A stretch of 64,000 nucleotides of DNA from Acidovorax sp. GTDB lineage: Bacteria; Pseudomonadota; Gammaproteobacteria; Burkholderiales; Burkholderiaceae_C. Shown here piece after piece: positions 9,586 through 64,000 of this stretch. A program made the position numbers and the translations under genes. Position 1 is the stretch's first letter; each line of letters opens with the position of its first letter. The DNA lies in NCBI GenBank assembly GCA_031277855.1, contig JAITLO010000008.1, positions 186,001 through 250,000 of the forward strand. The letters run 5' to 3'. Below the pieces are notes generated by a model. It worked only from the letters and a program-made list of their open reading frames with translations, was not told where the DNA came from and did not search any database.

Positions 9586-11016
9586 ATGCAAATCACGTTT
9601 CATGGTGCCGCGCAAGCGGTGACGGGTTCTTGCTTCCGGGTGGAAGTAGGAGATGGCAGTTTTCTGATCGATTGCGGCATGGCCCAGGGCGGGCAGCTGG
9701 CGCAGGCGCACAACCAGAGCGCCTTTGCCTTCGACCCGCGCGAGATCGATTTTGTGTTGCTCACCCATGCGCACATCGACCACAGCGGCCTGCTGCCCAA
9801 GCTGGCGGCCCAGGGTTTTCGCGGGCCTATTTTCTGCACACCGGCCACGGCCGATCTGCTGGAGGTGCTGCTCAAGGACAGCGCCCATATCCAGAGCATG
9901 GAGGCCGAACGCCACTGGCGCCGCGCCCGCAAGGGGCGGCAAAACGGCGGCAAGCATGCCGGCCATGGCCAGCACGAGGAGGACGAAGTCGCACCGCTGT
10001 ACACCCAGCAGGATGTGGCGCGGGCCCTGTCCCTGGTGGAGGCCAGGCCCTATGAGCAGCTGTTTGCCCCGCACCCGGCTGTGCAGGTCAAGCTGCGCGA
10101 TGCCGGCCATATTCTGGGCTCGGCCATTGTCGAGGCATGGCTGACCGAAGAGGGTCGCACGCGCAAGCTGGTGGCCAGCGGTGACCTGGGCCAGCCTGGC
10201 CGGCCCATCTTGCGCGACCCGGCCCTCATCGATGAGGCCGATGTGCTGCTGATCGAATCCACCTACGGCGACCGCCTGCACAAGGACAGCGGCGCCACGC
10301 TGGAAGAGCTGGTTGAGGTGGTGGGCCGCACTGCGCCGCGCGGCAATGTGGTGATCCCGGCCTTTGCCGTGGGCCGCACCCAGGAGCTGCTCTACCACTT
10401 TGCCCAGCTGGCGCGCCAGGGGCGGTTGCCCCCGGTGGAGATTTTTGTGGACTCGCCCATGGCGGTGACGGCCACGGCCATCACGCTGCGGCATTTCGCC
10501 AGCTTTGACGCCGCAACCCGCCAGTTGATGGGCAGCCCCGAGCATCTGGCCCAGTGGCGCCAGCTGCATTTCATCAGCGATGTGGAGGAGTCCATACGCC
10601 TGAACCGCATCAAGGCCGGTGCGGTCATCATCTCGGCCAGCGGCATGTGCGATGCCGGCCGTGTGCTGCACCACTTGCACAACAACCTGGGTCGCCAAGA
10701 CTGCGCGGTGCTGATCTGCGGCTACCAGGCCGCAGGCTCGCTGGGCCGGCGCCTGGTGGATGGGGAAAAGCGGGTGCGCCTGTTTGGCGACGACATCGAG
10801 GTGCGCGCCTCGGTGCACACCCTGGGCGGCTTTTCGGCCCACGCCGACCAGAAAGCCTTGCTGGACTGGGCCGGGGCATTCCAGCGCCCGCCGGCCCAGA
10901 CCTTTGTGGTGCATGGCGAAGACCATGCCGCCCAGGCACTGGCGGGAGCCTTACGCGCCTTGCCGAACTGGGGCCAGGTGCAGGTGCCGCAAGAGGGCAG
11001 CAGCTGGCAGCTCTAG
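9586..11016 (+). CDS. Beta-CASP metallo-beta-lactamase-fold hydrolase (RNase-like)
   Basis: 476 residues. The zinc motif HAHIDHSG gives His61, His63, Asp65 and His66. Later motifs include DAGHILGSAIVEAWL, IESTYGDR, the beta-CASP segments AFAVGRTQELLY and FVDSPMAVTAT, SASGMCDAGRVLHHLHN, and a C-terminal GFSAHADQ of the RNA-specificity region. This order is that of the beta-CASP family, which includes CPSF73-like and bacterial RNases. A cytoplasmic role in RNA processing or decay is likely but not proven. A basic, His/Lys-rich insert lies around residues 105-135. It is convergent with the FUSC gene. Confidence 0.85.
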   Translation: MQITFHGAAQAVTGSCFRVEVGDGSFLIDCGMAQGGQLAQAHNQSAFAFDPREIDFVLLTHAHIDHSGLLPKLAAQGFRGPIFCTPATADLLEVLLKDSAHIQSMEAERHWRRARKGRQNGGKHAGHGQHEEDEVAPLYTQQDVARALSLVEARPYEQLFAPHPAVQVKLRDAGHILGSAIVEAWLTEEGRTRKLVASGDLGQPGRPILRDPALIDEADVLLIESTYGDRLHKDSGATLEELVEVVGRTAPRGNVVIPAFAVGRTQELLYHFAQLARQGRLPPVEIFVDSPMAVTATAITLRHFASFDAATRQLMGSPEHLAQWRQLHFISDVEESIRLNRIKAGAVIISASGMCDAGRVLHHLHNNLGRQDCAVLICGYQAAGSLGRRLVDGEKRVRLFGDDIEVRASVHTLGGFSAHADQKALLDWAGAFQRPPAQTFVVHGEDHAAQALAGALRALPNWGQVQVPQEGSSWQL

Positions 11017-11043
11017 CCCTGCGATGACGGGTGCGATGCGACT

Positions 11044-11060
11044 GCTCCTTTTCAAGGAGC
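11044..11060. terminator. Small hairpin between convergent genes
   Basis: A 7-base perfect stem (GCTCCTT and AAGGAGC, 3-base loop) lies between the convergent beta-CASP and FUSC genes. There is no T-run, so a role as terminator is only possible. Confidence 0.3.
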
Positions 11061-11111
11061 GGCTGCAGCTTATGGGCTGTGCGTGAAAAGCCTTTTTGGT
11101 GCTTTGAATGT

Positions 11112-12188
11112 TCAGCGGCGCTTGGAATCTGCCAGGGCCTGCAAGGCCTCGCGCAGTTGCTGGGCCTGCTCGCCCACCATGCTCCAAGGCGGTGGCAGCG
11201 GCACATGGGGCAGACCGGGCTCCGGCGCTTCGGGGTCGGTGGCGGCGGTTCTGACATCCAGATCCACCAGCACCGGGTTGTGGGCCAGGGCCTGGCAGGC
11301 CTGCACCAGCCAATCGCAGCGCTGGGCAATGCTGGCGGGCATGGCCTCGGAGGTGTGGGCCAGGCTGCGCGACAGGCTTTCGCCCAGCAGCAGGCTGCAG
11401 GCATAGACACGCACGGCATGGCGGTCATAGCGACGGGTGATGGCGCCCACCTGTTCGGCAGCCAGCCGCCCGCGCAGCGACCAGCGCGACTCGGACTGGG
11501 CTTGCTGCACGGCCACGCGCAAGGCCGCCAGAGCGTCATTGGCGCGGGTCAGCCGGCCCAGCGCATGCTCGGCCTGGGCCTGGCTGCGGGCCTGCACGGC
11601 AGCTTGCATGGCTTCCAGCCCATCGCCCAGTTGCTGCAGCAAGGTGCTGGCGGCGCGCGCCATGGCGCGCACCGGGTCGGTGGTGAACAGCACCTGGCTG
11701 AAGACAATGCCGGTGGCCGCGCCCACCATCACATCCAGCAGCCGGGCACCGCCCGCCGTGCTGGGGCCCATGGCAAGCACCAGCAAGGTGGAGGTGGCAG
11801 CCTGGATGGGCACCACGGGCGTGCTGCTGAACAAGGCCGCAATCAACATGGACACCAGGGTGGCCCCACTGAGGCGCAGCAAAAAGTGGTGGTCTGGCAG
11901 CAGCCAGGCCAGATCGCCCACCACAATGCCCAGCACACAGCCCAGCAACATGCTCCAGGTCTGTCGCAGGTGGTTGGGCAGGCCCGGAGCCAGGCAGACC
12001 ACGGTGGTCATGGCAGCAAACACCGGCTTGGGCTGGCCAAACAGAAAATGGGAAAGATGCCAGGCCACCACACAGGCCAGGGCGGCGGCCAGGCTGTCGC
12101 CCAGTGCGCGGCGGGCCGAGGCTGGGGTGGTGCGCAGCCAGCGGCGCAGCGGGCGCAGCAGCATGCGTAACGAAGAAGAAACAGTCAT
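11112..12188 (-). CDS. FUSC-family membrane protein (putative aromatic acid exporter)
   Basis: 358 residues from the ATG at 12188 (MTVSSSLRMLLRPLRRW). The frame extends to 12251, but that part looks non-coding. The N-terminal half has several hydrophobic helices (for example AAALACVVAWHLSHFLFG), characteristic of FUSC proteins related to fusaric acid resistance and AaeB. The C-terminal half is soluble and helical. Family members sit in the inner membrane and export aromatic acids, often with an AaeA-like partner, which is not seen nearby. The function is therefore open. Confidence 0.8.
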   Translation of the reverse strand: MTVSSSLRMLLRPLRRWLRTTPASARRALGDSLAAALACVVAWHLSHFLFGQPKPVFAAMTTVVCLAPGLPNHLRQTWSMLLGCVLGIVVGDLAWLLPDHHFLLRLSGATLVSMLIAALFSSTPVVPIQAATSTLLVLAMGPSTAGGARLLDVMVGAATGIVFSQVLFTTDPVRAMARAASTLLQQLGDGLEAMQAAVQARSQAQAEHALGRLTRANDALAALRVAVQQAQSESRWSLRGRLAAEQVGAITRRYDRHAVRVYACSLLLGESLSRSLAHTSEAMPASIAQRCDWLVQACQALAHNPVLVDLDVRTAATDPEAPEPGLPHVPLPPPWSMVGEQAQQLREALQALADSKRR

Positions 12189-49318: not shown

Positions 49319-52036
49319 ATGACAGCTCAGACCGACCCCCAAGCTGGCGCCAACGCCAAGCCGAGCCTGGACGCCCAAGAATCCCGTGAGTGGATGGACG
49401 CGCTGTCCGCCGTCATCGACCGCGAGGGTGCCGAATACGCCCACCAACTGATCGAAGACCTGCTGGAACATGCCCGCCAAAACAGCGTGGACATGCCTTT
49501 CTCGGCCAAGACCGGCTACGTCAACACCATTGAAGCCGACCAGGAAGCCCGCTGCCCCGGCAATCTGATTCTGGAAGGCCGTCTGCGCGCCTATATGCGC
49601 TGGAACGCCATGGCCATGGTGGTCAAGGCCAACCGCATCCACCCGCCCGAAGGCGGTGACCTGGGTGGCCACATTGGCTCCTTCGCCTCGCTGGCGAATA
49701 TGTTTGCCGCCGGCTTCAACCATTTCTGGCATGCCGAGAGCGAAAACCACGGCGGCGACTGCCTCTACATCCAGGGCCATGTCTCGCCCGGCATCTATGC
49801 CCGCGCCTACCTGGAAGGCCGTATTTCCGAAGAGCAGCTGCTGAACTTCCGCCAGGAAGTGGATGGCAAGGGCCTGTCCAGCTACCCCCACCCCAAGCTG
49901 ATGCCCGAGTTCTGGCAGTTCCCCACGGTGTCCATGGGCCTGGGCCCGCTGATGGCCATCTACCAGGCGCGCTTCCTGAAGTATTTGCACGCCCGCGGCA
50001 TTGCCAACACCGAAAACCGCAAGGTCTGGGTGTTCTGCGGCGACGGTGAAATGGACGAAGTGGAATCGCTGGGCGCCATCTCCCTGGCCGCGCGCGAAAA
50101 CCTGGACAACCTGGTCTTCGTCATCAACTGCAATCTGCAGCGTCTGGACGGCCCGGTGCGTGGCAACGGCAAAATCATCCAGGAGCTGGAAGGCGAATTC
50201 CGTGGTTCGGGCTGGAACGTGATCAAGCTGATCTGGGGCCAGGGCTGGGACGAGCTGCTGGCCAAGGACAAGGACGGCGTGCTCAAGAAGATCATGATGG
50301 AGTGCAACGACGGCGACTACCAGTCCTTCAAGGCCAACGACGGTGCCTATGTGCGCAAGAACTTCTTCGGCCGCGATCCGCGCGCGCTGAAGATGGTCGA
50401 GCACATGAGCGACGACGAGATCTGGAACCTGCGCCGCGGTGGCCACGACTCGCAAAAAGTCTATGCCGCCTTCCACGCTGCCAATGGCCACAAGGGCCAG
50501 CCCACCGTGCTGCTGGTCAAGACCGTCAAGGGCTTTGGCATGGGCAAGATCGGTGAAGGCAAGAACACCGTGCACCAGACCAAGAAGCTGGGCGACGAGG
50601 ACATCAAGGCCTTCCGCGACCGCTTCAACATCCCCATCCCCGACAGCCAGATCGCAGACATTCCCTTCTACAAGCCGGCCGACGACACGCCGGAGATGAA
50701 GTACCTGCACGAGCGCCGCAAGGCCCTGGGCGGCTATCTGCCCCACCGCCGCGTAAAGGCCGACGAGCAGTTCACCGCACCTGCGCTGGACACCTTCAAG
50801 GCCATTTTGGAGCCCACGCCCGAAGGCCGTGAAATCTCCACCACCCAGGCCTATGTGCGTTTCCTGACCCAGTTGCTGCGCGACAAGGAAATCGGTCCCC
50901 GCGTGGTGCCCATCCTGGTGGACGAGGCCCGCACCTTTGGCATGGAAGGCCTGTTTCGCCAGATCGGTATCTACAACCCCCATGGCCAGCAGTACACCCC
51001 GGTGGACAAGGACCAGGTGATGTACTACCGCGAGGACAAGGCCGGCCAGATTCTGCAAGAAGGTATCAACGAAGCCGGCGGCATGGCCAGCTGGATTGCT
51101 GCGGCCACCAGCTACAGCACCAGCAACCGGATCATGATCCCGTTCTATGTGTACTACTCCATGTTCGGCTTCCAGCGCATTGGCGATCTGGCCTGGGCTG
51201 CGGGTGATATGCAGGCGCGCGGCTTCTTGCTGGGCGGCACCTCGGGCCGCACCACGCTGAATGGCGAAGGCCTGCAGCACGAAGACGGTCACAGCCACAT
51301 CCTGGCCAACACCGTGCCCAACTGCATCAGCTACGACCCCACCTTCGCCCATGAAGTGGCGGTGATCATGCAAGACGGCCTGCGCCGCATGGTGCAGAAC
51401 CAGGAAAACGTCTTCTACTACCTGACGCTGCTGAACGAGAACTACGCCATGCCCGGCCTCACCGCTGGCACGGAGCAGCAGATCATCAAGGGCATGTACC
51501 TGTGCAAGCCCGGCCAGAAGGTGCCGCAATCCGGCGAGCGCGTGCAACTGCTGGGCTCGGGCACCATCCTGCGCGAATCCTTCTTTGCCCAAGAGCTGCT
51601 GGAAAAGGACTGGGGCATTGCCGCCGATGTGTGGAGCTGCCCGTCCTTCAACGAGCTGACCCGCGACGGCCAGGACACCGAGCGCCACAACATGCTGCAC
51701 CCGCTGGAAACGGCCAAGCAGGCCTTTGTGACCCAGCAGCTGCAAGCCCACGCCGGCCCGGTGATTGCTTCCACCGACTACATGAAGGCCTACGCCGAGC
51801 AGATCCGCCCCTACATCCCCAAGGGCCGTACCTACAAGGTGTTGGGCACCGACGGCTTTGGCCGCTCGGACTTCCGCCGCAAGCTGCGCGAGCACTTCGA
51901 GATCGACCGCCACTACATCGTGGTGGCCGCGCTCAAGGCCCTGGCCGATGAAGGCAAGCTGCCCGTCACCAAGGTGGCCGAGGCCATTGCCAAGTACGGC
52001 ATCAAGACCGACAAGATCAACCCGCTGCACGCCTAA
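49319..52036 (+). CDS. aceE: Pyruvate dehydrogenase E1 component, homodimeric type
   Basis: 905 residues from the ATG at 49319, which follows CAGGAGA; the frame upstream to 49220 is not needed. The thiamine diphosphate site is seen in FCGDGEMDEVESLGAIS and VINCNLQRLDGP. The C-terminal half carries TSGRTTLNGEGLQHEDGHSH. This is the AceE type of enzyme, which decarboxylates pyruvate and passes acetyl to the lipoyl group on E2. It starts the operon with aceF, an unknown gene and lpdA. Confidence 0.97.
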   Translation: MTAQTDPQAGANAKPSLDAQESREWMDALSAVIDREGAEYAHQLIEDLLEHARQNSVDMPFSAKTGYVNTIEADQEARCPGNLILEGRLRAYMRWNAMAMVVKANRIHPPEGGDLGGHIGSFASLANMFAAGFNHFWHAESENHGGDCLYIQGHVSPGIYARAYLEGRISEEQLLNFRQEVDGKGLSSYPHPKLMPEFWQFPTVSMGLGPLMAIYQARFLKYLHARGIANTENRKVWVFCGDGEMDEVESLGAISLAARENLDNLVFVINCNLQRLDGPVRGNGKIIQELEGEFRGSGWNVIKLIWGQGWDELLAKDKDGVLKKIMMECNDGDYQSFKANDGAYVRKNFFGRDPRALKMVEHMSDDEIWNLRRGGHDSQKVYAAFHAANGHKGQPTVLLVKTVKGFGMGKIGEGKNTVHQTKKLGDEDIKAFRDRFNIPIPDSQIADIPFYKPADDTPEMKYLHERRKALGGYLPHRRVKADEQFTAPALDTFKAILEPTPEGREISTTQAYVRFLTQLLRDKEIGPRVVPILVDEARTFGMEGLFRQIGIYNPHGQQYTPVDKDQVMYYREDKAGQILQEGINEAGGMASWIAAATSYSTSNRIMIPFYVYYSMFGFQRIGDLAWAAGDMQARGFLLGGTSGRTTLNGEGLQHEDGHSHILANTVPNCISYDPTFAHEVAVIMQDGLRRMVQNQENVFYYLTLLNENYAMPGLTAGTEQQIIKGMYLCKPGQKVPQSGERVQLLGSGTILRESFFAQELLEKDWGIAADVWSCPSFNELTRDGQDTERHNMLHPLETAKQAFVTQQLQAHAGPVIASTDYMKAYAEQIRPYIPKGRTYKVLGTDGFGRSDFRRKLREHFEIDRHYIVVAALKALADEGKLPVTKVAEAIAKYGIKTDKINPLHA

Positions 52037-52054
52037 AACGACCGGAGACAGACA

Positions 52055-53758
52055 ATGGCACTGACAGAAATCAAGGTTCCGGACATTGGCGACTTCGACA
52101 GCGTGGGCGTGATCGAAGTGCTGGTCAAAGTGGGCGACACCATCAAGGTGGAGCAGTCGCTGGTGACCGTGGAGTCCGACAAGGCATCGATGGAAATCCC
52201 CAGCAGCCACGCCGGCGTGCTCAAGGAGCTGCGTGTGCAGCTGGGCGACAAGATCAGCGAAGGCGCGGTGATTGCCGTGCTGGAGACGGCCGACAGCGCT
52301 TCGGCGCCTGCCGCCGCTGCACCCGCTCCGGCTGCAGCGCCCGCTGCAGCTGCACAAGCTGCTCCTGCACCTATAGCAGCCCCCGTGGCTGCCGCTGCGC
52401 CGGCAGCCTCCAGCACACTGGCCATCCATATTCCCGATATCGGCGACTTCAAGGACGTGGCCGTGATCGAGATGCTGGTCAAGGTGGGCGACACCGTGAC
52501 GGCCGAGCAATCGCTGTTCACCGTGGAGTCCGACAAGGCATCGATGGAAATCCCGTCGCCCGCCGCTGGCACCATCACCGCGCTGACGCTGAAGATTGGC
52601 GACACCGTGAATGTGGGCGACGTGGTCGGCCAGATGACGGTGCAGGGCGCGCCCGTTGCTGCTGCTGCTGCTCCCGCTGCCGCAGCACCCGCTCCCGTGG
52701 CTGCAGCCCCTGTGGCCGCACCCGTTGCAGTTCCTGTGGCAGCCGCCGCCACAGCAGCCGTGGCGGCACCTGCTGCCGTGCCTGCACACAACCCCACCGT
52801 GGCCCCCACGGGCGCGCTGCCTTATGCATCGCCCTCGGTGCGCAAGTTCGCCCGCGAGCTGGGCGTGCCACTGGCCGAGGTCAAGGGCTCGGGCAACAAG
52901 GGCCGCATCACGGCTGACGACGTGCAGGCCTTCACCAAGTCGGTCATGGCCGGCGCGGTGCAAACCCTGGCACAGCAGGCCGCAGCGCCCGCCAAGTCTG
53001 GCGGTGGCAATGTCGGTGGCCTGGAAGTGCTGGCCTGGCCCAAGGTGGACTTTGCCAAGTTCGGCGCCGTGGAACGCAAGGACCTGTCGCGCATCAAGAA
53101 GATCTCGGGCGCCAACCTGCACCGCAACTGGGTAATGATTCCCCACGTCACCAACAACGACGAGGCCGACATCACCGAGCTGGAAGCCTTCCGTGTGCAG
53201 ACCAATGCCGAAAGCGCCAAGGCCAAGAGCGATGTCAAGGTGACCATGCTGGCCTTCGTCATCAAGGCCGTGGTCGCTGCGCTCAAGAGGTTCCCAGAGT
53301 TCAACGCCTCGCTGGATGGCGACACCCTGGTCTACAAGCAGTACTTCCACATCGGCTTTGCGGCGGATACGCCCAATGGCCTGGTGGTGCCCGTGCTCAA
53401 GGATGCCGACAAAAAGGGCATTTTGCAGATCAGCCAGGAAATGACCGAGCTGGCCAAAAAGGCCCGCGACGGCAAGCTGGGCGCTGCAGACATGCAAGGC
53501 GGCTGCTTCTCCATCTCGTCTCTGGGCGGCATTGGCGGCACCCACTTCACGCCCATCATCAATGCGCCCGAAGTGGCCATTCTGGGCCTGTCCAAGTCGG
53601 CCATGAAGCCGGTGTGGGACGGCAAGGCTTTTGTGCCGCGCCTGACGCTGCCTCTGAGCCTGTCTTACGACCACCGCGTCATCGACGGCGCTGCCGCCGC
53701 CCGCTTCAACGCCTACCTGGGCGCTGTGCTGGCCGACTACCGCCGCATCCTGCTGTAA
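52055..53758 (+). CDS. aceF: Dihydrolipoyllysine acetyltransferase (pyruvate dehydrogenase E2)
   Basis: 567 residues. Two lipoyl domains are present, with lysines in [10 protein letters not shown] at Lys43 and again near residue 160. Ala/Pro-rich linkers follow each. The E1/E3-binding domain lies around 255-295 (SPSVRKFARELGVPLAEVKG), and the catalytic domain ends with SYDHRVIDGAAAARFNAYLG, holding the active-site His. It moves acetyl groups from E1 to CoA. It starts 18 bases after aceE with CGGAGA upstream. Confidence 0.96.
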   Translation: MALTEIKVPDIGDFDSVGVIEVLVKVGDTIKVEQSLVTVESDKASMEIPSSHAGVLKELRVQLGDKISEGAVIAVLETADSASAPAAAAPAPAAAPAAAAQAAPAPIAAPVAAAAPAASSTLAIHIPDIGDFKDVAVIEMLVKVGDTVTAEQSLFTVESDKASMEIPSPAAGTITALTLKIGDTVNVGDVVGQMTVQGAPVAAAAAPAAAAPAPVAAAPVAAPVAVPVAAAATAAVAAPAAVPAHNPTVAPTGALPYASPSVRKFARELGVPLAEVKGSGNKGRITADDVQAFTKSVMAGAVQTLAQQAAAPAKSGGGNVGGLEVLAWPKVDFAKFGAVERKDLSRIKKISGANLHRNWVMIPHVTNNDEADITELEAFRVQTNAESAKAKSDVKVTMLAFVIKAVVAALKRFPEFNASLDGDTLVYKQYFHIGFAADTPNGLVVPVLKDADKKGILQISQEMTELAKKARDGKLGAADMQGGCFSISSLGGIGGTHFTPIINAPEVAILGLSKSAMKPVWDGKAFVPRLTLPLSLSYDHRVIDGAAAARFNAYLGAVLADYRRILL

Positions 53759-53771
53759 GCCTTGTGGCCGG

Positions 53772-53801
53772 GCAGGCCGGTTTTGTATGAAATCGGCCTG
53801 C
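53772..53801 (+). terminator. Hairpin after aceF, possible attenuator
   Basis: GCAGGCCG and CGGCCTGC form an 8-base stem with a long loop. No T-run follows, so it may slow transcription or mark an operon boundary, not end it. Confidence 0.35.
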
Positions 53802-53877
53802 AGCGCTTATCCCAATAGCACCGGCTGCTCTTGTTTTTGAGTAGCTTGTGCTTCACCTGGCAAGCCCTGTGAGTGAG

Positions 53878-54750
53878 ATGAAGAACCTGAGACAGCATCC
53901 CATCGAGCATGTGCGCGGCGTCATCCCCGGCATCCGGCCTTTTCCGGATGTGGCGGATGTCTTCGCCGAGCCGGTCGAGCGCTACGCGCGGCATTTCTTG
54001 CCGCTGGTGAGCATCGACCTGTCCATGCTCGACGATGGCTGGAGCGGGCCGATTCACCTCGTCACTCCCTGCGAACCCATGGAGGGCGTGGTGGGGGAGT
54101 GGGGCGCCGAGTTTGGCAATGCGCTGCTCAAGCCCAACTGGCTGGCTTTCAAGCTGGACGAACAAGGCAGGTACGAGCTGTTGGGCGACTGGCGCTGCTT
54201 CATGCTGGAGCAGGACCGCGCCGACTGGGCCGAGAAAAAGCACAGCTGGCGCGAGGTGCGGGACCAGCACCGTGAGCTGGTCAAACGTGGCGTTGCGCCG
54301 CCGTTTGCCCTGGACCACGAGGCCCGCTATTCCGATCGCGACAGCATGGAGCTGCACTACGCCATCCAGCACGCGGCCTATGACCAGGCCAAGCGGGACT
54401 TTGTGGCCCACGGCTGGAACCCGGCCAACGCCTGGGATGACGCTACCGAGGTGGCCAAGCTGCCCTTGTACGAGCCGGGCACGGATTGCTATGAAACCAG
54501 CTCCGGCCGCTATGTGCTGGGCGTGTTGGGCGGCCCATCCTGGGGCGGTAACTGGAGCAATGTGACCGAGCCGCTGCTCAGCAGCCTGGGCACGGAAGAC
54601 GGCGTTCACCCCATCCACCCGGAAACCGGGGCGCATTTCGAATTCATCGCCAGCACCAATGCCGATGCGTTTACCGAAATGGGCACCGAAACCCTGTTGT
54701 TCTACGAGCCCCAAAGCCGCACCGTGCTGCTGACCTTTGACTGGAGCTGA
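53878..54750 (+). CDS. Unknown protein inside the pyruvate dehydrogenase operon
   Basis: 290 residues from the ATG at 53878; GTG starts at 53848 or 53869 are also possible. I do not recognise the family. The protein is rich in Trp and acidic residues, has no signal peptide or membrane helix, and its C-terminal half contains [20 protein letters not shown] and [18 protein letters not shown]. The latter has a faint resemblance to DUF1963-like proteins. It sits between aceF and lpdA, 119 and 82 bases away. Its function in or beside the complex is open. Confidence 0.75.
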
Positions 54751-54832
54751 GGCTTCAGAACCTGAAAAAACCGTTTTCAGCCGCACTTGTACTGTCAGGC
54801 GGCCAGAGACAAAAACCAAGATAGGAGCGCAT

Positions 54833-56683
54833 ATGAGCCTCATCGATATCAAGGTACCCGACATTGGCGACTTCGCCGAAGTGGGTGTGATCGAACTGTT
54901 GGTCAAGGTGGGCGACACCGTGGCCGTGGACCAGTCGCTGATCACCGTGGAGAGCGACAAGGCCTCCATGGAGATTCCCTCCAGCCACGCCGGCGTGGTC
55001 AAGGAAGTGAAGGTCAAGATCGGCGACAAGGTCGCCGAAGGCTCGGTCATCATCGCGCTGGAAGCGGCTGGTGAGGCGACAGCCCCTGCGGCCGCAGCAC
55101 AGTCCAATCCGGCTGCAGCGCCCACCGCACCTGCACAGGCTGCTCCTGCAGCCGTAGCAGCGCCGGTGGCTGCACCTGTGGCCAGCAACTTCAGCGGCGC
55201 TGTCGATCTGGACTGCGACGTGGTGGTGCTCGGTGGCGGCCCCGGCGGCTATTCCGCAGCCTTCCGCGCGGCCGATCTGGGCCTGAAGGTGGTGCTGGTC
55301 GAGCGCTATGCCACCCTGGGCGGCGTCTGCCTGAACGTGGGTTGCATCCCCTCCAAGGCGCTGCTGCATGTGGCCGCGGTGATGGACGAGGTCAAGCACC
55401 TCGAAGTTGCCGGCGTCAAGTTCGCTGCGCCCGAGGTGAACATCGACCAACTGCGCACCCACAAGGAAAAGGTCATCGGCAAGCTCACCGGCGGCCTGGG
55501 CCAGATGGCCAAGATGCGCAAGGTCACCGTGGTGCGTGGCTACGGCAACTTTGTCGGCGCCCACCACATCGAGGTTGAAGAGACCACGGGTGAGGGCACC
55601 GAGCGCACGGGTAGCAAGAAGGTGGTGCAGTTCAAGAACGCCATCATCGCTGCTGGCTCGCAGGCAGTGCGCCTGCCCTTTATGCCCAAGGACCCGCGCG
55701 TGGTGGACTCCACCGGCGCGCTGGAACTGAAGGAAGTGCCCAAGCGCATGTTGATTCTGGGTGGCGGCATCATCGGCCTGGAAATGGGCACGGTGTACTC
55801 CACGCTGGGCGCGCGCCTGGATGTGGTGGAAATGATGGATGGCCTGATGCAGGGCGCCGATCGTGACCTGGTCAAGATCTGGCAAAAGATGAACGCCCCG
55901 CGTTTCGACAACATCATGCTGAATACCAAAACCGTGGCCGCCGAGGCCACGCCCGAGGGCATCAAGGTCTCGTTCGCACCGGCCAAGGACGGCATCACCG
56001 TGCCCGAGCCGCAAACCTATGACCTGGTGCTGCAGGCCGTGGGCCGCACGCCCAATGGCAAGAAGATTGGCGCCGACCAGGCCGGCGTGGCCGTGACCGA
56101 CCGCGGCTTCATCGACGTCGACATCCAGATGCGCACCAACGTGCCCCACATCTTTGCCATCGGCGACATCGTGGGCCAGCCCATGCTGGCGCACAAGGCG
56201 GTGCATGAGGCCCATGTGGCGGCCGAAGTCATCGCTGGCGAGCTGCAAGGCAACAAGGAACTGGCATCCGCTGCCTTCAATGCCCGCGTCATCCCCAGCG
56301 TGGCCTATACCGATCCCGAAGTGGCATGGGTGGGTCTGACCGAAGACCAGGCCAAGGCCCAAGGTATCAAGGTCAAGAAGGGCCTGTTCCCCTGGGTGGC
56401 CTCGGGCCGCGCCATTGCCAACGGCCGCGACGAGGGCGTGACGAAGCTGCTGTTCGACGACTCGCCCGAGGCCCATGGCCACGGCAAGATCCTGGGCGGC
56501 GGCATGGTCGGCACCCACGTCGGCGACATGATTGGCGAGATCGCCCTGGCGATTGAAATGGGCGCCGACGCCGTCGACATCGGCAAGACCATCCACCCCC
56601 ACCCCACGCTGGGCGAGTCCATCGGCATGGCGGCGGAAGTGGCGCATGGCTCTTGCACGGATGTGCCCCCGGTGCGCAAGTAA
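54833..56683 (+). CDS. lpdA: Dihydrolipoyl dehydrogenase (E3) with N-terminal lipoyl domain
   Basis: 616 residues from the ATG at 54833 with ATAGGAG upstream. Residues 1-80 are a lipoyl domain (Lys43 in [10 protein letters not shown]) nearly identical to the first in aceF. A linker leads to the flavoprotein: [20 protein letters not shown], the redox disulphide [35 protein letters not shown], and the C-terminal HPHPTLGE with the catalytic His-Glu. It reoxidises dihydrolipoamide with NAD. Lipoyl-bearing E3 is known in Ralstonia and Neisseria relatives. Confidence 0.96.
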
Positions 56684-56705
56684 GTTTTAGAACTTGCACC
56701 AAGAC

Positions 56706-56733
56706 AAAGGCAGCCTTCGGGCTGCCTTTTTTA
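56706..56733 (+). terminator. Rho-independent terminator of the pdh operon
   Basis: AAAGGCAGCC and GGCTGCCTTT form a 10-base stem with a TTCG loop followed by a T-run. Confidence 0.93.
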
Positions 56734-56822
56734 TTACTTTGATAGCTGCTTGTGCTTGCTGTGTATGCGCGGACAGCGGATTTCGCTGCGGGTTGCCAGA
56801 GCGCGCAGAGGTGCTCAAAACC

Positions 56823-56907
56823 TTGGCATTTAACTTGGCAAAATAGTTGGCAGTATTTTGAATTTCTCTTTAATAAACAAAGAGATGCAGTATGTGTAAA
56901 CTTGGCA
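56823..56907 (+). repeat. Four TTGGCA direct repeats before and into the first fic gene
   Basis: TTGGCA occurs at 56823, 56834, 56847 and 56902, spanning the promoter and first codons of the fic gene; AACTTGGCAA is repeated exactly at two of them. One copy with TTTAAT at 56869 could be a promoter -35/-10 pair, so some may be promoter parts and others regulatory. Confidence 0.45.
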
Positions 56908-58106
56908 ATATGACTACGCTCTACACATCGCCCCATCAGTTCGAGCCCCTGATGCCATCGGACGCCCACATAGAGCCCTTGCTCTCCAAGGCCGGGGATG
57001 TGGTGCGTGCTGCCACATCGCTGGTGGGCAAGCCTGTGCTGCCCGAACTGCGCACCTTGCTGCGCAGCATGAATTCCTACTACACCAACCGCATCGAAGG
57101 CCAGCACACGCGCCCGCACGAGATTGAGCTGGCGCTGGCCCAGGATTTCTCCAGCAACAAAGAACTGGCAGCCAAGCAGCGCCTGGCCGTGGCGCATATC
57201 GAGGCCGAAGCCGCGCTGGAGCAGCGTTACCAGGGCGAGGAGGGCGTGCGTGCGCTCTACAGCCAGGCTGGCGTGCAAGACCTGCACCGAGAGCTGTTTG
57301 GTCGCTTGCCAGAGTCCGATTGGGATGTGGCCGAAGGCCAGACCGTGGCGCCCGGTCAGCTGCGTGACAAGGAAGCCAGCGTAGGCCGGCACATTGCACC
57401 AGCGGCCGCCAGTGTGCCTGTGTTTATCGAACGTTGGGCCAGCCGCTACGGCAGCGTGCGCCGGGGCGAGGCTGCGCTGGTGGCCATGGCCTGTGCCCAC
57501 CAGCGTCTGGGCTGGATTCACCCATTTATGGACGGCAATGGCCGAGTCATGCGCCTGCATACGCACACCTTGCTCAGCAGCCTGGGCTACACCAATGGCC
57601 TATGGTCGCCCCTGCGCGGCTTTGCGCGCGGGCAAGAGCGCTACTACGCCTTGCTGGCCGACGCCGACAGCGCCCGCCGTGGCGATCTGGATGGCCGAGG
57701 CAATCTGAGCGAGCAGGCGCTGATTGCCTGGGCCGACTACGTGCTCGATATCTGCCTGGACCAGCTGCTGTTCATGGCCCGCATGCTGGACTTTGAGCTC
57801 ATCAAAGACCGCATCGAAGCCGCGCTGGTGTTTGAATCATCCGTGCTCAAAACCGGCGTGCGCAAAGAAGCGCTGCGCCCCTTGCACTATCTTTTCCTGA
57901 GCGGCGAAGAAATATCCCGTGGTGAGTTCAAGGCCATGCTCGGTCTGGGCGACCGCATGGCCACCGACGCGTTGGGCGCCTTGGTCAAACGCGGCCTGCT
58001 CAAAAGCGACAGCCCGCAAGGCAAGGTGCGCTTTGGGCTGCCGCAGCATGCGCTGCGGTTTTTGTTTCCAAAGCTGTGGCCGGAGGCGGAAGCGGATGCG
58101 GGGTAA
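56892..58106 (+). CDS. Fic-family protein (probable AMP transferase)
   Basis: 404 residues from the ATG at 56892, after AAAGAGA. The Fic core is HPFMDGNGRVMR with catalytic His210 and Arg218. An N-terminal inhibitory helix motif (S/T)xxxE(G/N) is present as TNRIEG at 65-70, so activity is likely self-restrained. A C-terminal winged-helix-like part follows. Fic proteins AMPylate target proteins. No antitoxin gene is adjacent, as expected when the inhibitory helix is in cis. It opens the accessory segment at 56.9-62.4 kb. Confidence 0.88.
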   Translation: MCKLGNMTTLYTSPHQFEPLMPSDAHIEPLLSKAGDVVRAATSLVGKPVLPELRTLLRSMNSYYTNRIEGQHTRPHEIELALAQDFSSNKELAAKQRLAVAHIEAEAALEQRYQGEEGVRALYSQAGVQDLHRELFGRLPESDWDVAEGQTVAPGQLRDKEASVGRHIAPAAASVPVFIERWASRYGSVRRGEAALVAMACAHQRLGWIHPFMDGNGRVMRLHTHTLLSSLGYTNGLWSPLRGFARGQERYYALLADADSARRGDLDGRGNLSEQALIAWADYVLDICLDQLLFMARMLDFELIKDRIEAALVFESSVLKTGVRKEALRPLHYLFLSGEEISRGEFKAMLGLGDRMATDALGALVKRGLLKSDSPQGKVRFGLPQHALRFLFPKLWPEAEADAG

Positions 58107-58516
58107 GCGGATGATTGATGGCGGCACAAAGACTGTGGCGCATCAAAGGGTGGCAGTATGGTTCTGCTGGAACACAGGTGACATGGACGTATCGTCAATA
58201 TCAATCCCCCTTTAACCCTTGAGGTGGCTCGAAATTACTGCTATAGCGCCAAGAATAGCTTGCAGTCTTGTATAGAGTGCTGTCCCGGTGCAAGTATTTT
58301 TTGCGCTTGAAAAAAATGAAGTTTTAGACTATATATCTATTTCCTTTAGTGAAGGGATGTCGATGTGAGTACTGACAATTGGTGGCTGGTGGGGTTTTAG
58401 ATAATTTATTTTATTTGAAATAAAAAAGTAAATTTATATTTTTGAGTAGTAAAAATTTAAATTTTGCAAACTTAAATTGGCAATCGAATTAATTAAAAAA
58501 TATGATTGGGTGAAAT
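58107..58516. other. AT-rich spacer before the ATPase gene
   Basis: 410 bases without a credible gene. Composition shifts within it from GC-rich (to about 58250) to strongly AT-rich. A possible promoter is TTGGCA at 58477 with TATGAT at 58501 (18-base spacing), just before the ATG at 58517, so the mRNA leader would be very short. No att site or repeat bounding the islet was found. Confidence 0.5.
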
Positions 58517-59902
58517 ATGCTAACTAGGCTGGAAGTTAATGGGTTTAAGAATCTGGTAAATTTTTCAGTTGATTTTGGGGTATTTAATTGTATAGCTGGT
58601 CTAAATGGTGTAGGAAAATCTAATATATTCGATGCCATTAAATTTTTATCCTTGTTGAGTGATAAAACAATTTTGGATGCATCTTTAGCAATCCGAGATA
58701 CTGAGTTCTCTGATCCATTAGACATATTCTGGACTAATGGAGAGGATCGTTCGAATGAAATTTCTATAGCTGTAGAAATGATTGTCTCGCAGAGGGCAAT
58801 TGATGACTATAAGCGTTCGGCTCAAGCAGCCTCCACATTCTTGCGGTATGAAGTAAAACTTCAATATCAAAGAGACGAGCATGCCAGGGGAGATTACAGG
58901 ATATTTCTTGCACATGAATCACTTAATTATATTAATAAAGGGGATGCAGTATCTAAGCTTTCCTTTCCATTGAGTGCACGAAATTTTAGAGATAAAGTTG
59001 TCCTGAATAAAAGAAAAGGGGCTGGTTTTATTTCGACATCTTCGGTGGGTGGATTTGTTGAAATCAATCTTCATCAAGATGGAACTGCAGGAATACCTCA
59101 GAGGCTTCCTGCAATGAATATGGAGCGAACAGTTATTTCTAATACGAATAGCATTGCCTCTCCGACAATATTGGCAGCACGTCGTGAAATGCAGTCTTGG
59201 AGAATGTTGTGCCTTGAGCCAAGTGCTATGCGTAGATCAAATAAATACTATGACTCACGGCAAGTAGATGCAAGTGGTGGCTGTATGGCCAGCACTTTAA
59301 ATAGACTTGTGGAACAAGATATTTCTATTCTTTCCAGGGTTGCAAGTAGATTGACAAGAATTATTCCTACTGTTGATATAAGGGTTGATGATGATAAGTC
59401 GAGACAAATATTGACCGTGGAGGTTAAAGAGCGCGCAGGTGCTTATCTTCCTGCAAGAGTACTTTCTGATGGAACATTGCGATTTTTGGCCTTGTGCATT
59501 ATGGCTGAAGATAATGAGTTCAGAGGCACTCTATGCTTTGAAGAGCCTGAAAATGGAATACACCCAGAAAAAATGAAGTCGATGTATGAGCTTTTGAAGA
59601 GCCTCGCTGTAGATCCTTTTGAAGAAATTTCTGATGAAAATGTTTTGAGGCAAATTATTATTGCTACGCATTCTCCTGTAATGGTTAATTTGCAAGATCC
59701 ACGTGATCTAATATATGCAGACGTTGTTAAGGTGAAGACCCAAGAAGGGAAGGTAACCAATACAATTAGGGCCAAGAGTATCCGTAATACATGGCGGTGT
59801 GAGAATAATAAAGTACAGGCGATTGAGGTGGGTTCAATAGTCGCTTACCTGAGTTATAGCAAGAATTCTCAGCTCAATCTTGATTTGAATTCTGTTGGTT
59901 AA
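58517..59902 (+). CDS. AAA/ABC-type ATPase of a putative defence pair
   Basis: 461 residues. Walker A is GLNGVGKSN with Lys34, the ABC-like signature is LSDGTLRF (316-323), Walker B is LCFEEPENGIHP (339-350) and the switch histidine is in ATHSP (His385). This is the AAA_21/AAA_15, OLD/RecF-like ATPase architecture. The gene is far more AT-rich than its surroundings and uses different codons, which indicates horizontal transfer. One base after its stop begins a TOPRIM/DUF4276-like gene, so they form one unit. The pairing resembles PARIS and AbiL modules, but identity with any known system is not shown. Confidence 0.85.
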   Translation: MLTRLEVNGFKNLVNFSVDFGVFNCIAGLNGVGKSNIFDAIKFLSLLSDKTILDASLAIRDTEFSDPLDIFWTNGEDRSNEISIAVEMIVSQRAIDDYKRSAQAASTFLRYEVKLQYQRDEHARGDYRIFLAHESLNYINKGDAVSKLSFPLSARNFRDKVVLNKRKGAGFISTSSVGGFVEINLHQDGTAGIPQRLPAMNMERTVISNTNSIASPTILAARREMQSWRMLCLEPSAMRRSNKYYDSRQVDASGGCMASTLNRLVEQDISILSRVASRLTRIIPTVDIRVDDDKSRQILTVEVKERAGAYLPARVLSDGTLRFLALCIMAEDNEFRGTLCFEEPENGIHPEKMKSMYELLKSLAVDPFEEISDENVLRQIIIATHSPVMVNLQDPRDLIYADVVKVKTQEGKVTNTIRAKSIRNTWRCENNKVQAIEVGSIVAYLSYSKNSQLNLDLNSVG

Positions 59903-59903
59903 T

Positions 59904-60539
59904 ATGCGATATATTAGTTTTGCTTTTGTTGGAGAGGGGTCTTCAGATTTGCATCTGAAAAATTTAATTGAAAACCTATTGATACATTATGGAGCGGATG
60001 AAGTTTCTGGCTATGAAGTTCCAGGCAATCAAACTGAATTAATTAAAGGACGAAGAGTAGAGGATAAGATCGAGTTTCTGAATAAAAATTATGCCTATGT
60101 AAATTTGTATATTGTGCATCGTGATGCAGACCGTGCGGGGTATCGCGCGAGATTTGATGAGATAATGAATGCTGCAAGGAAATATTCTGTTGTTGATAAA
60201 ACGGTTCCAATAATTACAGACAAAATGCTTGAGGCCTGGCTATTAACGGATAAAGAATACTTAAAAACTGTTGCTGGAAATTTGGGATATCGTGGGAATT
60301 TTAACGGAATAAATTTTAATTTGCTTGAAAATATAGCAGACCCTAAATCGGTTTTGGAGGATGTTTTGTGTGAGATAAATGGGTGCTCTGGCTATAAATT
60401 AAAGCAATTCAGAAAAACTTTTCCTGAGATGCGAATGAGGCTAGCGAATGGATTGTCGATAGATAATGAATTTTTACGAAATTTAAAATCTTTCCAAGAA
60501 TTTAGAGAAATTTTGCTTTCAAAAATGGGAATGTGTTGA
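59904..60539 (+). CDS. Small TOPRIM/DUF4276-like protein, partner of the ATPase
   Basis: 211 residues from the ATG at 59904, one base after the ATPase stop. A possible TOPRIM layout is seen: Glu11 in FVGEGSSD, Asp74 and Asp76 in VHRDADRAG, and Glu110 in KMLEAWLLTD. The latter wording is typical of DUF4276, whose members often stand beside such ATPases. A nuclease or effector role, controlled by the ATPase, is plausible. AT-rich like its partner. No additional antitoxin-like gene follows. Confidence 0.75.
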   Translation: MRYISFAFVGEGSSDLHLKNLIENLLIHYGADEVSGYEVPGNQTELIKGRRVEDKIEFLNKNYAYVNLYIVHRDADRAGYRARFDEIMNAARKYSVVDKTVPIITDKMLEAWLLTDKEYLKTVAGNLGYRGNFNGINFNLLENIADPKSVLEDVLCEINGCSGYKLKQFRKTFPEMRMRLANGLSIDNEFLRNLKSFQEFREILLSKMGMC

Positions 60540-60917
60540 ATAAATATTATTGAGGTGAGATTTAAAATGAACTTTAGGTACCCATGTCTGGATGTGGGTA
60601 CTAGCGCTACAGTGCATAAATATCTGAGATTCCCGATCGGTAAATATTTCAAGACTTGTCTGCTTTCCCCTTGAAAATTTCCCGATCGGTAATGAATGTG
60701 AGATCAAGGAAGGAAGAGTAGATTCTCTTTTGATAGCTATCAATGCTCGCTGCATATGCTCTGGTGGCCAGTTTGATGCCTGACGCAGACAGACCGCCCT
60801 CAGCTCACATCCCCCACGCCGATCTCCCAGGCCGCTAGTCAGCAGCCATCTTGGCACTTGGCGCATTGATTGAAATCGCGCCAAAATAGGCGCCACGTCA
60901 TCTATCAACGCGTCGCC
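60540..60917. other. Spacer before the second fic gene with direct repeats and an inverted repeat
   Basis: 378 bases without a gene. GTACCCA/TGGGTAC (60578-60601) could end the ATPase-TOPRIM transcript. TTCCCGATCGGTAA occurs exactly twice, at 60630-60643 and 60679-60692, each with a CCGATCGG palindrome. Nearer the gene, TTGGCGC/GCGCCAA (60858-60884) is an inverted repeat next to TTGGCA at 60851. Composition returns to GC-rich after about 60750. Confidence 0.65.
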
Positions 60918-62366
60918 ATGCCTGCAAGCCCTATCAAGCTCGAAAGCAGCCTTTCTTCAGAGGAAGAAGCACTGCTGCGGGCAGTGCAGCATGCCGGCCC
61001 CAAGGGTGTAGCTGTGGCGCAATTGCTGGCGCAATTTCCAACGCTATCGCGCCGTACGGCCCAGCGCTGGTTGGCGCAATGGGTGAGCGAGGGCTGGATT
61101 GCGGCCCAGGGCGAGGGCAGGGGGCGGCGCTATCTGGCCAGGCCTCCATACCAGGCAGCGGCCATGCCTGTTTTCGCTGCGGTGGAGGAGCCGCAGGCGG
61201 GCTGGGCGCAGGCCACAACGGCCTTGCTACTGGCGCCCGATGCGCAGGAGGTGCGTGCCTATGTGCAGCAGCCCTTGGCGCAGCGCGCGCCGGTGGGTTA
61301 TCAGCGCGATTTGCTGGAGAGCTATCAGCCCAATCACAGCTTTTATCTGCCCGAAACCGTGCGCCGCCAGTTGCATGCGCAGGGGCGTACAGCAGATGCC
61401 ACAGCGCCTGCGGGCACGTACAGCCGTGCGGTGTTGAATCGGCTGCTGATTGATTTGTCCTGGGCCTCCAGCCATATGGAGGGCAACACCTATTCGCGAC
61501 TGGACACGCGCAGGTTGATCGAAGAGGGCGCGGCCGCCCAGGGCAAGGGGCAGGTGGAGACGCAGATGATCCTGAACCACAAGGCCGCCATCGAGCTGCT
61601 GGTGGACAGCATCGCCCAGTTGCAACCCGGTGCGCCGCTGTGGAGCCGTTATCTGCTGATGAATCTGCACGCCGCGCTGGCGGAAAACCTACTGCCCAAT
61701 CCTGCGGACGAAGGCCGCGTGCGCCAGCATGTGGTGGACATCGGGCTCAGCGTTTACCGCCCCATTGGCGCGCCGCAGGTGCTGGAGGAATTGCTCAACG
61801 CCGTCATTGGCAAGGTCAATGCCATTGCCGATCCATTTGAACAAGCGTTTTTCATGATGGTGCATCTGCCCTATCTGCAGCCCTTTGCCGATATCAACAA
61901 GCGCGTCTCGCGCCTGGCCGCTAATGCGCCGCTGTTTCGCGCCAATCTGGCGCCGCTGACCTTTGTCGGTGTGCCGGCGGACCGCTACGCCCAGGCCATG
62001 CTGGGTGTGTATGAAATGGGCCGGGTGGAGCTGCTGCGCGATCTGTTCATCTGGGCCTATGAGCGCAGCACGCAGGAGTACACCGCGATTCGCCAGACCC
62101 TGGCCGAGCCCGATCCACTGCGCCTGGGCTATCGGGCGCTGATCAAGGAAACAGTGCGCGCCGTCGTCCAGCAGCCGGGCACTGACGCCATCGCCCTGGT
62201 GGAGCAGGCCGTGGAACAACAGGCGCCGCCGGCCCAGCGCGCCGAGCTCAAGGCCCTGATATTGGATGAGCTGCGCCGCCTGCACGAGGGCGTGCTGGCG
62301 CGCTATGGCCTGCGGCCCAGCGAATGGCAGGCCTGGAAGCTCTGGCAGAACGGGCTGCGGCGATAA
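60918..62366 (+). CDS. Fic-family protein with degenerate active site
   Basis: 482 residues from the ATG at 60918; the frame also opens at a TTG at 60870, inside the operator-like repeat. Residues 15-75 form a winged-helix-like domain (AVAQLLAQFPTLSRRTAQRW). The Fic core begins near 165. SSHMEG (184-189) matches the inhibitory motif. The active-site loop reads QPFADINKR (321-329) instead of HPFxDGNGR: the catalytic His is Gln and both loop glycines are changed. It may be a regulator or act by altered chemistry. GC-rich, unlike the ATPase pair before it. Confidence 0.82.
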   Translation: MPASPIKLESSLSSEEEALLRAVQHAGPKGVAVAQLLAQFPTLSRRTAQRWLAQWVSEGWIAAQGEGRGRRYLARPPYQAAAMPVFAAVEEPQAGWAQATTALLLAPDAQEVRAYVQQPLAQRAPVGYQRDLLESYQPNHSFYLPETVRRQLHAQGRTADATAPAGTYSRAVLNRLLIDLSWASSHMEGNTYSRLDTRRLIEEGAAAQGKGQVETQMILNHKAAIELLVDSIAQLQPGAPLWSRYLLMNLHAALAENLLPNPADEGRVRQHVVDIGLSVYRPIGAPQVLEELLNAVIGKVNAIADPFEQAFFMMVHLPYLQPFADINKRVSRLAANAPLFRANLAPLTFVGVPADRYAQAMLGVYEMGRVELLRDLFIWAYERSTQEYTAIRQTLAEPDPLRLGYRALIKETVRAVVQQPGTDAIALVEQAVEQQAPPAQRAELKALILDELRRLHEGVLARYGLRPSEWQAWKLWQNGLRR

Positions 62367-62515
62367 CCAAGCGCTTGCGGAGCGCATCTGCGGTTTGCAT
62401 CTGAGCTCATGCGTAAATCTTTGTTGGTCTGCCGGTGCTTTGCACCTAGAGTCGCGCTCCTTGACCGAGTGCACTCCCCGCGCTCGGCAGCGACAGGAAT
62501 GTGAGAGTGAGTCAG

Positions 62516-64000
62516 ATGAACAAGCGTGAGTTTTTGCTGTCCGGCCTCAAGGCCGGTGCCGTGGTCAGCCTGCCCGGAGGTCTGTTGGCCTGCGCCAGCA
62601 CGGTGTCCAGCCAGGATCCGGTGGTGGAAACCGCTGCGGGCAAGCTGCGCGGGCTGCGCAGCGCCCAGGGCTTTGCCTTCAAGGGCGTGCCCTATGGCGA
62701 GAGTACGGGCGGAGCGAACCGCTTCCGCGCCCCGGCGGCCAAGCAGGCCTGGGCCGGCGTGCGGGACGCCACCCAGCACGGCGCCAGCGCGCCGCAGCCC
62801 AAGGGCGCATCGGTGCCGGAATTTACCTGGTACTGGTCGGATGCGGCCACCAGCGAAGACTGCCTGTCCCTGGCGGTCTACACCCCGGCCCTGGATGGCA
62901 AAAAGCGCCCCGTGTTGCTGTGGCTGCATGGCGGCGGCTTTGCCACCGGCGCCGGCACCTCGCCTGGCTTTGATGGCAGCTATCTGGCCCGCGCGCAGGA
63001 TGTGGTGGTGGTCTCCATCAACCACCGCCTGAATGTGTTTGGGTCGCTGCTGATCGAGGCCCCGGGTTTTGCGGCCGAGTCGGCCAATCTGGGCGTACTG
63101 GACCAGGTGCTGGCGCTGCGCTGGGTGCGCGAGAATATTGAGCGCTTTGGTGGTGATGCCGGCAATGTGACCATCTTTGGCCAGTCCGGCGGCGCGGCCA
63201 AGGTCACGGCGCTGCTGGGGGCGCCGGCCGCCAAGGGCCTGTTCCACAAGGCCGTGGTGCAAAGCGGCTCGGGCCTGTGGCGCCTGGCCAGCCGCGACAA
63301 GGTGGCCCAGGCCAGCCACGGCCTGCTGCAGGAGCTGGGGCTGGACCGCGCCAGCGCTGCGCGCATACAGCAGTTGCCGGTCGAGCAGATTGTGGCGGCC
63401 TATAGCAAGCTGCTGGCCAAGACCGGGGGCGTCAGCGAATTTCGCCCCACGCTCGATGGCGTGGTGTTCCAGCAGGAACCCTATGACCCGGTGGCCACGC
63501 CGCTGGCGGCCCAGGTGCCGGTGTTGGTGGGCTATGCCCAGCACGAGGCCACGTTTTTTCTGGCGGGCAATCCGGCCAATTTCTCCATCAGCGAGGCCCA
63601 GCTGCAGGCGCGGGTGCAGAAGTTTCTGCGCCTGTCCGGTCCGGCTACGAACGAGCTGCTGCAAAGCTACGAGGCCCATTACCCGGGCAGCACGCCGTCG
63701 CAGCGCCTGATCGCCCTGGCCAGCGACTACAACTACAAGCTGCCCACGCTGGCCTTTGCCGATCGCCAGGCCGACCTGGGTGCGGCGCCGGTGCACGCCT
63801 ATGCCTTCGACTGGACCTCGCCGGCGCGCGCCGGGGCCCTGGGTGCGGCCCACACCGCCGAAGTGCCTTTTATCTTTGGCACGCTGGACGCTGCCCGCGC
63901 CCTGGTACAGGACAGCCCGGACCAGCTGCAGGTGCGCGATCGCCTGGGCGCCATCTGGGGCCAGTTCGCCCGCAACGGCAATCCCAACTCCGCCGCCAGT
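62516..64000 (+). CDS. Type B carboxylesterase, 3' end beyond window
   Basis: The frame is open from the ATG at 62516 to the last base (495 codons). The signal sequence has a possible lipobox (GGLLAC, Cys26). Alpha/beta-hydrolase features are the oxyanion loop LLWLHGGGFATG, the nucleophile Ser224 in FGQSGGAA (usually GESAG, here Gln in place of Glu), the acidic residue near YAQHEATFF, and the His in GAAHTAEVPFIFG. Type B carboxylesterases cleave carboxylic esters, and some act on p-nitrobenzyl esters. The C-terminus is missing. Confidence 0.85.
   Translation, partial: MNKREFLLSGLKAGAVVSLPGGLLACASTVSSQDPVVETAAGKLRGLRSAQGFAFKGVPYGESTGGANRFRAPAAKQAWAGVRDATQHGASAPQPKGASVPEFTWYWSDAATSEDCLSLAVYTPALDGKKRPVLLWLHGGGFATGAGTSPGFDGSYLARAQDVVVVSINHRLNVFGSLLIEAPGFAAESANLGVLDQVLALRWVRENIERFGGDAGNVTIFGQSGGAAKVTALLGAPAAKGLFHKAVVQSGSGLWRLASRDKVAQASHGLLQELGLDRASAARIQQLPVEQIVAAYSKLLAKTGGVSEFRPTLDGVVFQQEPYDPVATPLAAQVPVLVGYAQHEATFFLAGNPANFSISEAQLQARVQKFLRLSGPATNELLQSYEAHYPGSTPSQRLIALASDYNYKLPTLAFADRQADLGAAPVHAYAFDWTSPARAGALGAAHTAEVPFIFGTLDAARALVQDSPDQLQVRDRLGAIWGQFARNGNPNSAAS

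Follow-up and report, generated by a model that had tools for sequence, protein, structure and literature searches.

What is encoded by an AT-rich islet that lies between two fic genes in otherwise GC-rich Acidovorax DNA, and could it serve in defence against phages? The question was raised by a first-pass annotation of a 64-kb stretch from Acidovorax sp. (assembly GCA_031277855.1, contig JAITLO010000008.1, positions 186,001-250,000 of the forward strand; hereafter the window, whose own coordinates are used). The islet had been described there as a phage-defence unit of a related or new type, consisting of an AAA ATPase and a 211-residue effector of the TOPRIM or DUF4276 kind. The analysis reported here assigns both genes to HEC-01, a candidate system in PADLOC, and makes it likely that they form an anti-phage unit in which the ATPase would act as a sensor, keeping a predicted OLD-type Toprim nuclease in check and letting it go once the cell is infected. 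The two genes are:

58517..59902, + strand, HEC-01A-type ABC/SMC-family ATPase (AAA_21/AAA_15), 461 amino acids, predicted sensor/regulator
59904..60539, + strand, HEC-01B/DUF4276-like predicted Toprim nuclease, 211 amino acids (E11, D15, D74, D76, E110, K148)

The ATPase frame runs from an ATG at 58517 to its stop at 59902 and, after the single spacer base 59903, the second frame runs from an ATG at 59904 to its stop at 60539, just as had been noticed at first pass. The islet itself was equally apparent, with a GC content of 31-42% in 500-base windows over 58250-60749 (the edge windows being mixed) against 55-70% in windows of the same size in the flanks (50000-58249 and 60750-63999). Of the 631 one-kb windows of the 64 kb, 21 fell below 42% GC and all 21 lay inside 58001-61000. 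The gene pair is proposed to be a horizontally acquired two-gene unit, AT-rich and foreign-looking.

Families and pairing of the two genes

Searches against defence-system models, which had been suggested as a check, gave HEC-01A as the best PADLOC match of the ATPase (PDLC04184, E 2.4e-101, residues 1-427 of 461), and HEC-01B as the match of the small protein (PDLC04210, E 2.6e-15, residues 1-202 of 211). Seven PADLOC families were listed for the small protein, every one of them HEC-01B, and no AriB or DUF4435 family was present among its PADLOC and Pfam matches up to E 1; a scan of 150 genomes for DUF4435 itself found two loci, an insufficient number for comparing profiles. Because both genes match HEC-01, the pair is not a new type of system. 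What stands of the original proposal is a split pair of an ATPase and a Toprim-like protein, akin to PARIS, OLD and MADS, that is probably anti-phage.

The tie of the small protein to DUF4276 (PF14103) is by kinship only, at the level of the family to which its sequence assigns it. The HEC-01B models match all 39 members of an alignment that includes the window protein (alignment A5), DUF4276 is matched by 32 of the 39 (E <= 0.01), and several database relatives carry the DUF4276 name. The window protein itself reaches 14 of the 30.2 bits of the Pfam gathering cut-off, and the DUF4276 label given at first pass therefore holds for the family and not for this protein on its own. The family is large, the scoring of 7,995 candidates having yielded 5,442 proteins at E <= 1e-6, and the present reading would tie it to predicted nuclease-based immunity.

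All of the ATPase motifs that had been named were found, namely Walker A (residues 28-36), the signature (316-324), Walker B (340-350) and the switch histidine (His385), and the core formed by G28, N30, G31, G33, K34, S35, L316-L324, E342-P350 and H385 is invariant in 20 aligned sequences including the window's. The protein matches AAA_21 (1.3e-25) and AAA_15 (1e-21) in Pfam, and profiles of SMC_N and RecF match its N terminus. In a fold search its structure model (predicted local distance difference test score, pLDDT, 76; residues 151-214 poor) resembled SMC heads (E 2.1e-12) and PtuA of Septu and retrons. The SMC-like head and the SMC_N and RecF profiles, together with the cell-cycle role of an archaeal OLD protein described in PMC12796447, would suit a pair for DNA repair or genome maintenance, that is, an SMC/RecF/Rad50-like ATPase and a nuclease that were moved by chance. 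We regard this as very improbable: the ATPase was matched only in its own genome among both 53 same-genus genomes (its own included; E <= 1e-60) and 369 same-class genomes (E <= 1e-100), the pair is AT-rich cargo in a variable slot, and the best family models are defence candidates. A clear match to a known non-defence family, which would have spoken against the first-pass reading, was not among the profile matches.

The association of the two genes was studied in ATPase loci from named species genomes, taken as the best 80 of at least 536 confirmed. In 74 of these 80 loci a member of the small-protein family lies directly behind the ATPase on the same strand, with its start (mechanically assigned) within -20 to +30 bases of the ATPase stop in 48 of the 74, and in one further locus (L098) the matches to the two proteins share one frame. 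The other five (L104, L118, L123, L129 and L134) are without the partner family. At L118 the partnerless family ATPase is followed by an 851-amino-acid frame, methyltransferase-like by sequence reading (8602-11157). The ATPase is the slower-evolving partner, being more similar to its window counterpart than the small protein is in 74 of 75 comparisons (median identities 42% and 31%). The nearest relative of the window's small protein among the 75 genome partners (at L067) is 41-44% identical and three database proteins are 65-68% identical, which by sequence places it as a divergent HEC-01B member.

Abutting or overlapping genes that are coupled in 75 of the 80 loci, and the title 'AriA antitoxin' given in the PDB to the related ATPase AriA, are also what a toxin-antitoxin or mobile-element stabilising pair might present, in which the nuclease would be the toxin, the ATPase the antitoxin, and the purpose its own upkeep and not defence. 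Such a role is rather unlikely, as tblastn found the ATPase in hardly any plasmid (1 of 72,556 records, E <= 1e-60) or phage (1 of 50,697 records, E <= 1e-20; the single phage-labelled record bears no annotation), other PADLOC-like genes occupy the same slot and hotspot, and the pair is akin to MADS. A peptide-pattern search of viral contigs found no occurrence.

Predicted active site of the small protein

An AlphaFold2 model of the small protein (pLDDT 95.2) places E11 after a strand at residues 3-9, D74-x-D76 at the end of a strand at 68-74, then a strand at 100-105, E110 in a helix at 109-113, and K148 in a helix at 147-159. This is the arrangement expected of an OLD-type site, with a Glu after strand 1, DxD ending strand 3, a helix acid after strand 4 and a later Lys. 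The active site of Bp OLD comprises E400, E404, D455, D457, T506, E508 and K562 in passages of PMC6755086, and the order E, acid four residues later, DxD, E, K is common to both proteins. The place of T506 is not retained; it corresponds to position 108 in the small protein, which is mostly Met. Among the 75 genome partners D74, E110, W112 and R83 were conserved in all 75, R73 in 74 and K148 in 72; position 11 was Glu in 42, Asp in 30 and a gap in three, and position 76 was Asp in 43 and Glu in 32. The four acids that had been singled out at first pass (Glu11, Asp74, Asp76 and Glu110) are thus all present, positions 74 and 110 without variation among these partners and the other two restricted there to Glu or Asp wherever aligned.

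A second alignment of the family (A1), in which H72, R73 and W112 are invariant, was used beside A5 for comparison with 27 OLD-like Toprim regions. The profiles aligned in register with scores of 23.6 (A5) and 23.3 (A1), which none of 100 column shuffles each attained (maxima 14.5 and 16.5, respectively), and a lumazine-synthase control gave 13.0 and 12.7. The P value of HHalign on OLD Toprim was 0.008-0.009, its own probability being only 4-5%. A Foldseek search with the model returned nothing at E <= 0.001; its leading rows were dihydroxyacid dehydratase and Mg-chelatase and, in a second look, lumazine synthases together with domains of Argonaute/Piwi, none of them a Toprim protein. These rows look like common Rossmann arrangements and were not taken as evidence for function. 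Weak matches to PDB chains, three by sequence and two by profile, were set aside as chance.

The top fold rows, and the invariant H72, R73 and W112, which go beyond the OLD set, would accord with a small protein that is no nuclease but a Rossmann-like enzyme that has an acidic pocket, binds a nucleotide or a metal, and acts with the ATPase in defence by other chemistry. In our judgement this is distinctly unlikely in the face of the OLD residue order including K148, the in-register OLD profile match that beats all shuffles, and a coupled exchange at both predicted metal-A ligands. Because of the residue order, the order of strands and helices, the profile alignment and this paired exchange, the small protein is probably an OLD-type Toprim nuclease, and on the same four points the TOPRIM call of the first-pass annotation is upheld in part, the fold search having given no match at the above threshold. 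Its casting of the small protein as the probable effector is likewise supported, as part of the core of its proposal.

The exchange concerns positions 11 and 76. In the genome loci E11 occurred with D76 in 42 and D11 with E76 in 30, with no mixed case among the 72 that had both letters (three were gapped). A wider set, which took every fourth of 120 listed database proteins, comprised 172 aligned rows, of which four with a gap or Asn at position 11 were dropped; the 168 scored rows were E/D in 103, D/E in 64 and E/E in one, so that 167 of the 168 had one of each acid. The 120 listed matches as such were D-E in 106, Asn11-Glu76 in 13 and D-K in one. On a FastTree phylogeny built with both columns omitted, nine changes were counted at position 11, eight at position 76 and nine in the joint state. 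On the genome-only tree the two residue groups need six changes, three of them forced by supported branches. For instance, E/D is carried by L113 and L101 (Caldilineaceae) and D/E by L115, which is related to them. A phylogeny-corrected sign test gave p 0.125, short of significance because only four supported independent pairs were available.

In passages of PMC6755086, E400 and D457 of Bp OLD both serve metal A. Our reading of the exchange is that positions 11 and 76 would share one predicted metal, and that the combined length of the two side chains must therefore stay constant. If so, the double exchange should keep activity and the single ones should impair it. No report of a Glu/Asp swap in Toprim was found in narrow searches of the literature, and within those searches the coupled exchange in the predicted active site is new.

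A hotspot for variable cargo behind the lpd-like gene

The surroundings of the pair were compared with locus L027 of genome G032, the closest relative by the lpd-like gene (95%). The further features of the window are:

54737..56683, + strand, lpd-like gene (open frame), behind which the hotspot lies; its homologues are the anchor in the genus
56892..58106, + strand, fic1, upstream flank of the slot (PF02661, E 8.4e-16; 96% amino-acid identity to L027)
58099..60628, strand not applicable, AT-rich cargo block, replaced by different cargo in the relative (comparison with L027)
60918..62366, + strand, fic2, downstream flank of the slot (PF02661, E 1.5e-9; 92% amino-acid identity to L027)

The lpd-like gene is presumably a dihydrolipoyl dehydrogenase gene, named from its sequence; its start was given mechanically and the true one may lie further in, while that of fic2 is an ATG chosen inside an open frame that begins at 60870. 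Both flanking genes are indeed fic genes, as described at first pass. They were considered as members of the unit and set apart from it because they are GC-rich and are kept in L027, where the cargo between them differs. That cargo (8976-11877) is also AT-rich, lies in the opposite orientation and encodes a 419-amino-acid AriA/PDC-M29A-like ATPase with a 153-amino-acid partner without clear family. The alignment with L027, read by eye, put the right edge of the window's cargo at ~60629 and the left edge between 58099 and ~58190. In G062 (94% by the lpd-like gene) the region has neither a fic match nor an AT-rich block.

The region was examined at 40 lpd-like copies from 39 of the 53 same-genus genomes (G064 has two copies; the own genome and 13 others stand outside the count), over ~9 kb behind each copy (only ~3.4 kb at L029) and 9.5 kb before it. 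Behind the lpd-like gene, 10 of the 40 regions had AT-rich blocks, defined as 1 kb under 42% GC, as against 0 of 40 upstream (Fisher p 0.001, a guide only, given that these genomes share ancestry and that a conserved operon may occupy the upstream side). PADLOC was run on nine of the 10 cargos (L064 left out; one protein each for L050, L062 and L031) and gave matches at E <= 1e-8 in seven: PDC-M49, three NsnB-like ATPases, PDC-S15 with an NsnA-like gene, PDC-S45, and an ATPase near AriA/PDC-M29A. These names are approximate because the PADLOC ATPase models cross-match. The hotspot marks a place on the chromosome that could be searched for further systems.

The two cargos without a PADLOC match at E <= 1e-8 are AT-rich single genes, at L062 (3331-5289, 652 amino acids, 26% GC) and L050 (6558-8615, 685 amino acids, 42% GC), and are candidates for undescribed defence genes. 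The partners of the NsnB-like ATPases were also without a match at this threshold (L032 2127-3176, 350 amino acids; L039 8752-9636, 295 amino acids; L059 6396-7478, 361 amino acids), the one at L039 having a weak, below-cut-off Pfam match of the phospholipase D-like kind. Fragments of the lpd-like gene, mostly its 3' part, lie beside the variable region at L035, L059 and L062, with matches in G026 and G075, and look as if insertions had duplicated the end of the gene.

Several smaller observations were made around the slot. A 31-base direct repeat (74% identical) at 56738-56768, after the lpd-like gene, and 60729-60759, before fic2, brackets fic1 and the cargo, and may belong to a dispersed intergenic repeat or be due to chance. 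Two copies of the motif TTCCCGATCGGTAA are present in 60629-60700, on the right border of the cargo, and the motif is retained in L027 beside a 108-amino-acid helix-turn-helix gene that adjoins fic2 and is HipB-like by sequence reading; the motif pair is possibly a leftover operator. Rfam gave zero matches over 56600-61000 up to E 0.1, and a promoter and terminator scan was unenriched (9 where shuffled sequence gave 8.6, and 1 where it gave 1.8).

Proposed mechanism and comparison with known systems

The defence reading is drawn from the kinship of the pair to MAD3 and MAD4 of MADS and from its location among variable AT-rich cargo. The mechanism is modelled on PARIS, in which, according to passages of PMC12409363, the ATPase AriA holds AriB and frees it upon sensing a phage protein. 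By analogy, the ABC/SMC-type ATPase would hold the small protein inactive until infection is sensed, and would then release or license it. In the predicted site of the small protein E11, D74 and D76 would bind metal A and D15 and E110 metal B, with K148 at the phosphate. The target of the freed nuclease may be tRNA, the substrate in PARIS, or DNA, which OLD and Gabija cut; sequence does not tell between the two. Such cutting would halt either the phage or the cell that it has infected. HEC-01 is a defence candidate, and with its predicted metal-binding residues named the locus offers a testable mechanism for it.

The closest system is HEC-01 itself. Both its models match near full length, the genes are adjacent at one base apart, the partner stands directly behind the ATPase as it usually does, and no feature was found that excludes the window pair from membership. 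HEC stands for Hma-embedded candidate, and several HECs, HEC-06 among them, are antiviral in passages of PMC12988326 (2026); passages of PMC12724379 record HEC-01 in Desulfovibrio piger, by detection only. In the literature searched, no experimental test of HEC-01 was found (the original HEC paper lay outside the search and may hold one), nor any mention of DUF4276 or of HEC-01 together with PADLOC.

PARIS shares with the window pair an ATPase and a Toprim protein (in the window a predicted one) in separate genes, and the PADLOC models of AriA match the window ATPase at 7.1e-27. HEC-01A is far stronger, however, and the AriB (DUF4435) effector is missing from the small protein's matches, so that PARIS was rejected as the identity of the pair and the likeness drawn at first pass does not extend to the family. 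The AbiL system is further removed, with a weak PADLOC match of AbiLi to the window ATPase (1.2e-14) and no AbiLii among the seven families listed for the small protein. The OLD nucleases (P2 Old, Gabija GajA and the retron-Eco8 OLD) also combine ATPase and Toprim, carry the acids and lysine in the same order, and have a Toprim profile that aligns in register with the window family. They differ in being encoded by one gene and not two and in the threonine equivalent to T506, which the window family does not retain, and the pair in the window is flanked by fic genes, with neither a GajB helicase nor a reverse transcriptase beside it. Gabija was rejected since there is no GajB neighbour and the ATPase and small protein are unfused.

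MADS, which is counted among the ATPase-Toprim defence systems in passages of PMC12409363, resembles the pair in both genes, mad3 and mad4. The window ATPase matches the NCBIfam MADS3 model (E 6.2e-40), although at 137.6 bits it is far under the 420-bit equivalog cut-off. Two MAD4 proteins match HEC-01B models in hmmscan (1e-7 and 8e-4) and have the EAW and PDPK motifs in common with HEC-01B, whereas EG...D and HRDAD are lacking from both MAD4 stretches, and the immediate neighbours of the window pair are fic and not MADS genes. The MAD4 link rests on hmmscan because the HHalign score is weak (20.2 with A5, against a maximum of 19.5 in 60 shuffles; 24.6 with A1, unshuffled); MAD4 scored 12.9 against OLD Toprim. 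Taken broadly, we incline slightly to the view that the DUF4276/HEC-01B family consists of two-metal Toprim nucleases of the OLD type, whose canonical Toprim Glu and second DxD acid have repeatedly exchanged Glu and Asp in a coupled manner, and that HEC-01 and MAD3/MAD4 would form a distinct split branch of ATPase-Toprim immunity, represented here in a defence hotspot behind the lpd-like gene.
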